A DNA stretch of 64,000 bases from Alcanivoracaceae bacterium. GTDB taxonomy: Bacteria > Pseudomonadota > Gammaproteobacteria > Pseudomonadales > Alcanivoracaceae. The notes under the pieces are model-generated. The model was not told the origin of the DNA and searched no databases. It saw only the letters and a list, made by a program, of their open reading frames with translations. The translations under genes and the position numbers were made by a program. The stretch is taken from NCBI GenBank assembly GCA_029213045.1, contig JARGPN010000007.1, forward strand, positions 62,001 through 126,000, in the 5' to 3' direction. Below, one piece after another: positions 14,171-17,198 of the stretch. Positions within the stretch are counted from its first letter, which is position 1; every line of letters starts with the position of its first letter.

Positions 14171-15037
14171 TTACAGCACAATGGCGGAACGCAGTTTCTT
14201 CATGGCGTTGTTTTCTAACTGACGAATTCGTTCTGCTGAAACGCCGTATTCGTCGGCCAATTCTTGAAGCGTCACTTTATCGTCGTGCAACCAGCGGCGC
14301 TCAATAATAGAACGGCTACGCTCATCTAATGTCTGCATTGCCGAAAACATGCGCTGGTGGTGTTGTGACTGCCAATCTTCTTCCGCCAAAATTTCAGACG
14401 GGTCAGATTCCGTATCGCTCACCAAATACTGCGCAGGCGACGGCACAACACTGTCTTCATCTTCATTGGTCGGGCCATCGAATGACGCGTCAAACGCACC
14501 CAGACGTCCTTCCATTTCCAGCACGTCTTTTACTGCCACGCCAAGGTCATCAGCAACGCGCTGCGCCTCTTCCATGGTTAAACGGGCCAGACGTTTTTTC
14601 TGTCCGCGCAGATTAAAAAACAATTTGCGCTGGGCTTTGGTGGTCGCCACTTTGACGATGCGCCAGTTCTTTAGCACGAACTCGTGAATTTCTGCCTTGA
14701 TCCAATGCACCGCAAACGACACCAAGCGCACGCCAACATTCGGATCAAAACGGCGCACCGCTTTCATCAAGCCAACGTTACCTTCTTGGATTAAATCAGC
14801 GAGCGGCAAACCATAGCCGGAATAGCTACGCGCAATGTGCACCACAAAACGCAGATGAGAGAGAACCAATCCGCGCGCAGCGTCGAGGTCCTCGTCATAA
14901 AATAGTCGCTCAGCTAAGGCGCGCTCTTCCTCGGCGGTCAACAGATCAACGCTGTTGGCGGCACTGATATACGCATCCAGGCTGTCGCCCGGGACGGCTA
15001 AAGGAATAGCCCTTGCTGACTGAAGCTGGGTGGTCAT
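14171..15037 (-). CDS. rpoH: Heat-shock sigma factor RpoH (sigma-32)
   Basis: 288 residues. It directs RNA polymerase to heat-shock promoters. Region 2: [56 protein letters not shown]. The RpoH box is QRKLFFNLR. Region 4.2 ends with [24 protein letters not shown]. The start at 15037 fits the family N-terminus ([17 protein letters not shown]) and has a GAGAAGGG ribosome site; the frame is open further upstream but that part has no homology and runs through the CIRCE site. A perfect CIRCE element lies 33 bases before the start. The usual ftsYEX neighbours are absent. Confidence 0.96.
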
Positions 15038-15069
15038 GAAGCCCTTCTCCCCTGAAATTCCACTCGATA

Positions 15070-15096
15070 TTAGCACTCGAATTGTTAGAGTGCTAA
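15070..15096. promoter_or_regulatory. CIRCE operator (HrcA binding site) upstream of rpoH
   Basis: TTAGCACTC, nine bases (GAATTGTTA), GAGTGCTAA: a full match to the CIRCE consensus. It lies 33-59 bases before the rpoH ATG. Its arms resemble a -35 (TTAGCA) and overlap a -10-like TAATAT, 18 bases apart, on the rpoH strand, so a bound HrcA repressor would block polymerase. Sequence match is direct; control by HrcA is inferred. Confidence 0.92.
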
Positions 15097-15140
15097 TCCC
15101 AGTGAGGGTTCCGTAATCAAGAAGAAACCTGTGGCCCAGC

Positions 15141-15803
15141 CTAGGCTGCCGCGCGCTTGGCGATGGCGCGAAGCACAATGCGGCACTGGCTTTCACCGTA
15201 CTCTCGAATGTCCGCCGCGGCGGCTTCTTCGTTACGCCCCAACACATTGACCAGCAAGCGCTGGAAGATACCCAGCGACACGTCAAACTCGGTGGTTTCT
15301 TCCGTCAGGGCAATATAGGAGTAGCGCTGAAGCTGCGGCATGAGGTCGCGGATCGCCTCCGCAAGATAGTGATTTCGGGCAAAACGCAACGCTCTGGGCA
15401 GAAATTCGAACACCGCTTGGTGCGCGCCGCGAATATCACCGTCCGAGTGGAAGCGTTCGATAATCGGCAAAACTGTCACCAGATCATCTAACTCACCTTG
15501 CTGCCACGTCGCCGCAGCGCGCCCAGCCAGCTGCCCAAGCAGCAGGAACAAAAAATCATAGAGCTCTTTAACTTGATTCTCGGTGATGTCCGCCACGCGC
15601 GCGCCCCTGCGCGCAAATATCGTGATCAAATGACGCTTCTCCAAGATTCTAAAGGCTTCTCTGAGTGAGTTTGTACTCACTTCTAGTTCGGCCGCGAGAT
15701 CCGTCTCCGGCAAGCGCGCGTTCGGCGACAAAGCGCCACGAATAATGCGTTCGCCGAGATGATCGGCAATTTGTTCACTGAGATTCGCTGTTTTAATCGG
15801 CAT
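15141..15803 (-). CDS. GntR-family transcriptional regulator (FadR/FCD-like), divergent from alkB
   Basis: 220 residues from the ATG at 15803. The N-terminal winged helix matches Gnt[53 protein letters not shown]. The C-terminal helical domain (about residues 80-215) would bind the effector, probably a fatty-acid or alkane-derived molecule given the context. The frame is open for 35 more codons upstream, but that part covers the promoter palindrome and is not conserved-looking. A GntR gene divergent from alkB is also described for alkB2 of Alcanivorax borkumensis. rpoH follows on the same strand but has its own control region. Confidence 0.88.
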
Positions 15804-16049: not shown

Positions 16050-17198
16050 ATGGTTTCTAATATGAGTCCGGCGCTAATGCTAAAAATGAAGAAGTGGGGC
16101 TATCTACTTTTTTGGCTAGTGATGATTCCCATTCTGCCGTTTAGTGCGCTGGTTGGTCGCGAGTCTGGCACGCAAGATTACTGGGCATGGTTTATCTACT
16201 TTGTCGTGTTTGGGATCATCCCGATCCTCGATTACATCGTCGGCAAAGACCCGAGCAATCCAGATGAGCTCACCGAGGTGCCTGCGCTAAACGACGAAAA
16301 AAGCTACCGCGTGTTCACGTTACTAATGGTGCCTGTTTGGTTCGGCGTACTCGCGTGGAGCGGCTGGGTCTTTATGCATAACGATTATTCGTGGTTCGGA
16401 AAGCTGGGATGGATTGTTTCAATCGGCACCATTGGCGGCGTTATTGCCATCAACCTTGCCCACGAAATGATTCACAAGGATCCACGTCTAGAAAACTGGG
16501 CGGGCGGCCTCTTATTAGCGTCGGTCACGTACGCAGGCTTCAAAGTTGAACACGTTCGCGGCCACCACGTAACCGTTTCAACGCCGGAAGATGCTTCATC
16601 GTCTCGCTACAACCAAGGTTTGTATGCATTCCTGCCCCACGCGTTCGTGCACAACTTTATTAACGCCTGGCGTTTAGAAAAAGAATACTTAGCCCGCAAA
16701 GGCAAAAAGAACATCAGCATTCATAACGAACTGATTTGGTGGTACGGCATTTCATTCGGGCTGGCAGCACTGTTTGGCTTAGCGTTTGGCTGGCAGGGTG
16801 TATTGTTTTTCTTCGCACAAAGCTTTGTCGCGTCGGCAACACTGGAAGTGATTAACTACATTGAACATTATGGCTTACACCGTCGCGAACTAGACAACGG
16901 CAAGTACGAGCGCGTTACTCCAGCGCATAGCTGGAACTCAAACTACTTGCTGACCAACTTGGCACTGTTCCAATTGCAGCGTCACTCTGACCACCATGCA
17001 TACGCCAAGCGTCGCTACCAAGTACTGCGCCATTATGAAGAAAGCCCGCAGCTACCTGGCGGCTACGCATCCATGTATGTGCTGGCATTGTTCCCACCGC
17101 TGTGGAAGAAAGTCATGAACCCACGGGTAGAAGCTTACTACCAAGGTGAAATGGATCAGCTGTTCCGCACCGGCAAGCGCGTGAATAATATCGCTTAA
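16050..17198 (+). CDS. alkB: Alkane 1-monooxygenase AlkB
   Basis: 382 residues. Integral-membrane di-iron enzyme that hydroxylates n-alkanes to 1-alkanols with rubredoxin as electron donor. All histidine boxes are present: HEMIH (138-142), HVRGHH (168-173), and LQRHSDHHA (309-317), plus the AlkB signature NYIEHYGL (269-276). About six membrane helices are visible (for example residues 18-36, 46-62, 88-108, 120-138, 228-262). RBS is AAGAGG. No rubredoxin gene is next to it. A terminator follows. Distinguished from xylene monooxygenase by the NYIEHYGL signature. Confidence 0.97.
   Translation: MVSNMSPALMLKMKKWGYLLFWLVMIPILPFSALVGRESGTQDYWAWFIYFVVFGIIPILDYIVGKDPSNPDELTEVPALNDEKSYRVFTLLMVPVWFGVLAWSGWVFMHNDYSWFGKLGWIVSIGTIGGVIAINLAHEMIHKDPRLENWAGGLLLASVTYAGFKVEHVRGHHVTVSTPEDASSSRYNQGLYAFLPHAFVHNFINAWRLEKEYLARKGKKNISIHNELIWWYGISFGLAALFGLAFGWQGVLFFFAQSFVASATLEVINYIEHYGLHRRELDNGKYERVTPAHSWNSNYLLTNLALFQLQRHSDHHAYAKRRYQVLRHYEESPQLPGGYASMYVLALFPPLWKKVMNPRVEAYYQGEMDQLFRTGKRVNNIA

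Follow-up and report, generated by a model that had tools for sequence, protein, structure and literature searches.

An HrcA-type CIRCE operator interlocked with a predicted σE-like promoter of rpoH in an Alcanivoracaceae bacterium and related Gammaproteobacteria

The repressor HrcA and the heat-shock sigma factor σ32 are commonly described as running in parallel in the heat-shock response. In a 64,000-nucleotide stretch of an Alcanivoracaceae genome (hereafter the window), however, the gene for σ32 itself, rpoH, is preceded by a sequence that looks exactly like the operator of HrcA. An important question is therefore whether this sequence could place the repressor above the sigma factor, and whether it is a peculiarity of one genome or a common feature of rpoH promoters in the wider group to which this bacterium belongs.

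The operator, rpoH and hrcA

The CIRCE operator (HrcA box) occupies positions 15070–15096 on the reverse strand and reads, in the orientation of rpoH, TTAGCACTC-TAACAATTC-GAGTGCTAA; a motif scan finds it without a single mismatch, just as an earlier note on this DNA had claimed. The pattern TTAGCACTC-N9-GAGTGCTAA matches nowhere else in the 64 kb scanned at up to three mismatches, with 0.02 matches expected by chance and a match in 2 of 100 shuffled versions. A gap of 32 bp separates CIRCE from the ATG of rpoH (14171–15037, reverse strand, 288 amino acids). That the gene behind the operator is rpoH, also proposed in the note, is confirmed by profile scores of 402.6 bits against TIGR02392 (cut-off 323.1) and 420.5 bits against NF005143 (cut-off 241). 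It is the sole gene above the TIGR02392 cut-off in the entire genome (3.17 Mb in 16 contigs, 99.9% complete), and its product has its nearest named matches in Alcanivorax, at 73–74% identity. HrcA binding to this CIRCE is a prediction from the motif and its place.

Scanning the whole genome at up to three mismatches reveals two real sites, i.e. the perfect one at rpoH and one with a single mismatch 90 bp ahead of groES. Since the reversed control pattern matches as often at this threshold (two forward and two reverse matches, but none at up to two mismatches), the weight rests on the number of mismatches and on the place of the sites rather than on their count. The earlier note had proposed looking for hrcA and for CIRCE at groES or dnaK in the same genome. 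A single hrcA is indeed present (302 bits against TIGR00331, cut-off 197.2, covering positions 1–337 of 338) and is followed by grpE and then dnaK; the groES site exists, but the hrcA-grpE-dnaK operon of this genome has no CIRCE at up to three mismatches, including the region ahead of hrcA.

Conservation of the site and other CIRCE loci

Conservation was followed in an order-level sample of 145 genomes searched for rpoH, hrcA and CIRCE; rpoH upstream DNA was analysed in 142 of these, as G022 and G062 (both with hrcA) and G120 (without) were dropped because their rpoH match was partial or distant. The hrcA gene is present in 43 of the 145 genomes, and CIRCE at up to two mismatches occurs anywhere in 49, against seven for the reversed control. 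In the 400 bases that precede the matched portion of rpoH, CIRCE at up to three mismatches was found in 40 of 41 genomes with hrcA (this genome included) versus 7 of 101 without; among the 40 sites, 26 have no mismatch, seven have one, five have two and two have three. Before rpoH the reversed motif gave no match in 142 genomes, and the region from -700 to -400 gave none in 140. Fisher's test for the co-occurrence of hrcA and site yields 7e-27 with kinship ignored, a value that overstates certainty because related genomes are not independent; contrasts within families and the spread over 18 families that have both hrcA and the site are the safer basis. Thus, in families f24 and f47 the hrcA-bearing member has the site and the hrcA-less members do not. 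Among hrcA-less members of family f18, G092 has no site, and in G059 perfect arms lie 10 bases apart, a change that the ungapped N9 scan misses, as it does the site of G075 (no hrcA; two mismatches, 8-base spacer).

Closer to home, all four other genomes of the same family carry CIRCE before rpoH, so that the retention in relatives that the note had suggested checking holds both in the family and, at 40 of 41, in the hrcA-bearing genomes of the order. Two findings had been named beforehand as speaking against the idea, i.e. a genome without hrcA and a site that is not conserved; both were tested and neither refutes it. The exceptions in the order are G105, the single hrcA-bearing genome without CIRCE before rpoH, and seven hrcA-less genomes with it: G141 and G091 without mismatch, G087 and G016 with one, G002 with two, and G090 and G082 with three. 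Of these seven, G091, G002 and G082 are less than 90% complete, which makes the absence of hrcA uncertain there, whereas the other four are not below this mark. Since other members of families f13 and f17, to which G141, G087, G091 and G016 belong, have hrcA, the gene may have been either overlooked in these four or lost recently.

At the class level, hrcA was detected in 201 of 274 genomes at E up to 1e-3, with 195 above the cut-off. In 68 genomes outside the order, picked by rpoH score order and not at random from 246 over the cut-off, CIRCE at up to three mismatches precedes rpoH in 51 of 56 genomes with hrcA versus 4 of 12 without. In one of the five hrcA-bearing genomes lacking a site at this threshold, G256, inspection by eye reveals the arms 8 bases apart; of the four hrcA-less genomes with a site, G242 and G320 are less than 75% complete, and G345 and G218 are nearly complete. 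Among 80 named rpoH loci, CIRCE was found before rpoH in 15, with titles that include Alcanivorax (two), Halioglobus (two), Haliea, Halieaceae, Ketobacter, Methylomonas, Thiohalomonas, Pleionea, Kangiellaceae and others.

Away from rpoH, 35 of the 39 order-level CIRCE loci among the matches listed (this genome included) lie at groES, the other four being unassigned, and rpoH and groESL are thus the two standing CIRCE targets in the order. None of the order-level CIRCE sites among the matches listed is located just upstream of hrcA in a comparison of coordinates that leaves out G008, G012, G017, G054, G087, G115 and G141. In the class-level genomes G209 (C77:14923–14964) and G388 (C40:29068–29109), CIRCE-like sites do lie about 60–70 bp upstream of hrcA, so that in some lineages at this level HrcA apparently regulates its own gene. 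In G028, whose rpoH site has three mismatches, a perfect CIRCE (L247, about 501–527) lies about 55 bp ahead of an open reading frame with weak AAA-ATPase matches (best 30 bits) that is neither groES nor rpoH and is a possible third HrcA target. A feedback of σ32 onto hrcA was considered and is not supported, as the promoter score before hrcA in this genome is reached by 63% of shuffles; in a scan of 12 genomes, only in G004 did none of 200 shuffles reach the score. Repeated TACAGTAT-like stretches occur upstream of hrcA at three loci (L267, L269 and L270, i.e. in 3 of the 12 genomes), which to us resemble LexA boxes.

Promoter elements and the fate of the operator without hrcA

Promoters of the σE/AlgU type read GGAACTT-N15/16-TC..A, with about 16 bases between the elements and TCTGA as a typical -10, and the extended -10 of σ70 promoters reads TGnTAaaaT. 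The P3 promoter of rpoH in E. coli is σE dependent. Alignment of motifs in the window places a σE-like -35, GGAACCC, at 15106–15112 (reverse strand), nine bases upstream of CIRCE, and a σE-like -10, TCTAA, at 15085–15089 (reverse strand), 16 bases from the -35 and formed by the two final bases of the left CIRCE arm and the first three of the spacer. On the other side, the right arm, read along rpoH, runs on as GAGTGCTAATAT into TGCTAATAT, a σ70-like extended -10 at 15067–15075 (reverse strand) that overlaps this arm. Both -10 elements therefore share bases with the operator. We take GGAACCC-N16-TCTAA to fit the σE/AlgU consensus with an imperfect -35, less perfect than the GGAACTT of many relatives, and TGCTAATAT to fit the extended -10. 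The TAATAT over the right arm that the earlier note had described as -10-like is present along rpoH, and its overlap with CIRCE is kept in relatives; what the note had missed are the σE-like promoter, the decayed sites of hrcA-less genomes and a published prediction in Geobacter, to which we return below.

These promoter letters distinguish rpoH sites from groES sites. In the order sample, which was chosen independently of these letters, GAAC lies 8–10 bases upstream of CIRCE in 37 of 40 rpoH sites (8–9 bases in 36, 10 in one) versus none of 35 groES sites, the third spacer base is an A in 37 of the 40 rpoH sites but in 4 of the 35 at groES, and a T stands three bases past the right arm in 39 and 7 of them, respectively; TAA opens the spacer in 24 of the 40 rpoH sites. 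TTGAC within 30 bases upstream shows the opposite distribution (25 of 35 groES sites versus 1 of 40 rpoH sites). Class-level rpoH sites have GAAC at the set distance in 39 of 51, the spacer A in 42 and the right-flank T in 47. The fused pattern GAACTT-N9-CIRCE, allowing up to three mismatches, was found in 136 of 274 class-level genomes, with no reversed-control match among the matches listed; because it tolerates a poor GAACTT, the 136 genomes include groES sites, and of 30 such loci inspected, 26 are at rpoH, three at groES and one is unassigned. At the phylum level and at up to two mismatches, it occurs in 12 of 299 genomes, this one included; GAAC is intact in neither of the two matches outside the class (G459 and G477).

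Judging from this pattern, both promoters of rpoH may well be in use. If, instead, HrcA represses rpoH but only the σ70 promoter matters, GGAACTT..TC..A would be a weak or inactive σE promoter. The T of the extended -10 is indeed the most constant flank at both the order and the class level, the -35 here is GGAACCC, and GAAC does not stand at the set distance in 12 of the 51 sites at the class level. However, the -35, its spacing and the letters of the -10 are conserved together in the order, the σE-like -35 is absent from the groES sites, and rpoE is present in the genome (315.6 bits). Moreover, PMC13104619 describes promoter P3 of rpoH in Pseudomonas aeruginosa as AlgU dependent, a comparison made at the level of description. 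Taken together, we regard a role for the σ70 promoter alone as unlikely.

If the arms are kept for HrcA, they should fare differently where hrcA is missing. Promoters were located by 15 promoter positions, some of them common to CIRCE, and 12 HrcA-only positions were then scored. At a promoter score of at least 12, genomes with hrcA keep on average 11.5 of the 12 positions (n = 24 of 41 genomes) and those without keep 6.8 (n = 20 of 101, including G091, G016 and G002 with nearly whole sites), while in a shuffled control 3 of 505 reach this score, with a mean of 3.3. The other 81 of the 101 hrcA-less genomes fall below a score of 12 and say little either way. Some hrcA-less genomes thus retain GGAACTT..TC..A..TGnTA..T while the HrcA-only positions decay, and partly eroded arms in some hrcA-less relatives agree with an operator that was ancestral in them. 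In the hrcA-less genomes G082, G046, G001 (f2), G128, G100, G034 (f35) and G038 (f39), for example, the GGAACT promoter is intact and the CIRCE arms around it are half decayed.

The σ32 of E. coli is under translational control. By analogy, the palindrome could be kept mainly because it serves as promoter sequence or forms a hairpin in the mRNA, with HrcA weak or ineffective at rpoH and σ32 set post-transcriptionally. This would agree with promoter elements overlapping both arms, with the arms or parts of them being kept in some hrcA-less genomes, with the chaperone control of E. coli σ32 covered in accessible passages of PMC6032397, and with CIRCE sites elsewhere that had no effect when tested, such as that of a groESL operon of Rhizobium leguminosarum, which, as told in PMC3989490, responded neither to CIRCE deletion nor to an hrcA knockout. 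Against it stands, however, the difference in HrcA-only positions between genomes with and without hrcA. Furthermore, usual promoter spacing predicts transcription starts near 15077–15080 for σE and near 15058–15062 for σ70, i.e. inside CIRCE or beyond it, and a transcript with the complete hairpin would thus require read-through from further upstream. The rpoH leader fold is no more stable than that of shuffled sequences (z = 1.56), which weighs neither for nor against an RNA thermometer. We therefore consider this explanation rather improbable.

The surroundings of rpoH differ from those in a named relative. A co-directional gene for a GntR/FCD-family regulator (15141–15803, reverse strand), probably outside the system, lies upstream of rpoH, and divergent from it is a gene for a membrane protein of the fatty-acid-desaturase family (16050–17198, forward strand), a mere neighbour and presumably an AlkB-like alkane hydroxylase. 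In Alcanivorax jadensis, the only species compared in this respect, rpoH follows ftsX, which here is about 55 kb away, with the GntR/FCD gene upstream instead; CIRCE and promoter stay with rpoH in both, i.e. CIRCE, promoter and rpoH travel as a unit. Although CIRCE sits between the GntR gene and rpoH, a chance match is ruled out by the shuffles, by the reversed-motif and -700 to -400 controls and by the conservation of the site in relatives, and an operator of the neighbours by the fact that the GntR and AlkB-like proteins give no tblastn hit (E up to 1e-10) at any of the 80 named rpoH loci (up to 3 kb on each side, some shorter), 15 of which, two from Alcanivorax among them, have CIRCE nevertheless, so that the probability of either is practically negligible.

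A predicted HrcA gate on rpoH and its relation to known systems

Overall, we consider it likely that the rpoH promoter contains a working HrcA operator, at which active HrcA would block transcription by both σE and σ70 polymerase until GroE is titrated. In an unstressed cell, HrcA supported by GroE would sit on CIRCE and keep RNA polymerase off rpoH, with σE polymerase being blocked at the -10 in the left arm and spacer and σ70 polymerase at the extended -10 over the right arm. Once GroE is taken up by unfolded proteins, HrcA would loosen, rpoH and groESL would be released together, and the σ32 produced would turn on the wider heat-shock regulon. Thus, transcription of rpoH would require both an available sigma factor and an HrcA that is off, and stress of the envelope and folding stress in the cytoplasm would meet at a single promoter. 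HrcA binding, repression, the use of two promoters and the control of HrcA by GroE are all inferred here from sequence; GroE does stimulate DNA binding by HrcA in Bacillus subtilis and Helicobacter pylori, as described in passages of PMC6032397.

Several observations were counted against this gate, i.e. the imperfect -35, G105, the 5 of 56 class-level genomes with hrcA but without the site, the 12 of 51 sites without GAAC, and the hrcA-less genomes with a site. The same applies to a time course of nitrogen starvation in Xylella: according to PMC3224663, hrcA is up four-fold at 2 h, and the two-fold rise of rpoH comes at 8 and 12 h. The non-responding operon of PMC3989490 has slightly lowered our confidence in the operator as well as in the evolutionary reading that follows.

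On balance, and with more reserve than for the operator itself, we favour an ancestral gammaproteobacterial circuit in which HrcA gated a σE/σ70 promoter of rpoH, with rpoH and groESL as the core regulon. The σ32-only scheme of Escherichia and Pseudomonas would then be a remnant after loss of hrcA, with decayed arms still visible in some lineages. If the operator works, the activator would have a repressor immediately above it in much of the Gammaproteobacteria, GroE sensing would reach rpoH transcription, and the half-palindromes that flank rpoH promoters in some genomes without hrcA would be explained. How model species without hrcA came to other controls of σ32 would thereby become a testable history.

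Permina and Gelfand (2003) reportedly compared CIRCE and σ32 in the heat-shock regulons of beta-, gamma- and epsilon-proteobacteria, and it is quite possible that rpoH has been listed before among the HrcA targets of this class, for instance in that survey. In the literature outside that survey and RegPrecise, our search found no report of a class-wide or σE-fused CIRCE–rpoH arrangement, and CIRCE before rpoH appeared only in PMC545781, with none in the accessible parts of PMC10696704, PMC1978210, PMC3557214, PMC3135505, PMC5904260 and PMC9959188.

That precedent is Geobacter sulfurreducens, where, according to Table 8 of PMC545781, a perfect CIRCE was predicted in 2004 at -51 of rpoH. As here, CIRCE is found at both rpoH and groESL, and as here the evidence is a computational prediction. 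However, it concerns one delta-proteobacterial genome, Table 8 gives no rpoH site for G. metallireducens, the pages available describe no σE promoter at rpoH, and the hrcA-grpE-dnaK-dnaJ operon of G. sulfurreducens carries a CIRCE, in contrast to the operon here. With P. aeruginosa, the locus shares a σE-type promoter (P3) and σ70 promoters (P1 and P4) before rpoH; in the accessible text of PMC13104619 no HrcA operator is described there, whereas here the operator lies inside the promoter. Finally, operator and repressor family are the same as in the HrcA/CIRCE systems of B. subtilis, H. pylori and others, which act on groESL and dnaK operons in the passages available of PMC6032397, and groESL is a predicted co-target here as well. 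In contrast to those systems, HrcA is predicted here to act on the gene for the heat-shock sigma factor itself, with the operator interlocked with a σE-like promoter.
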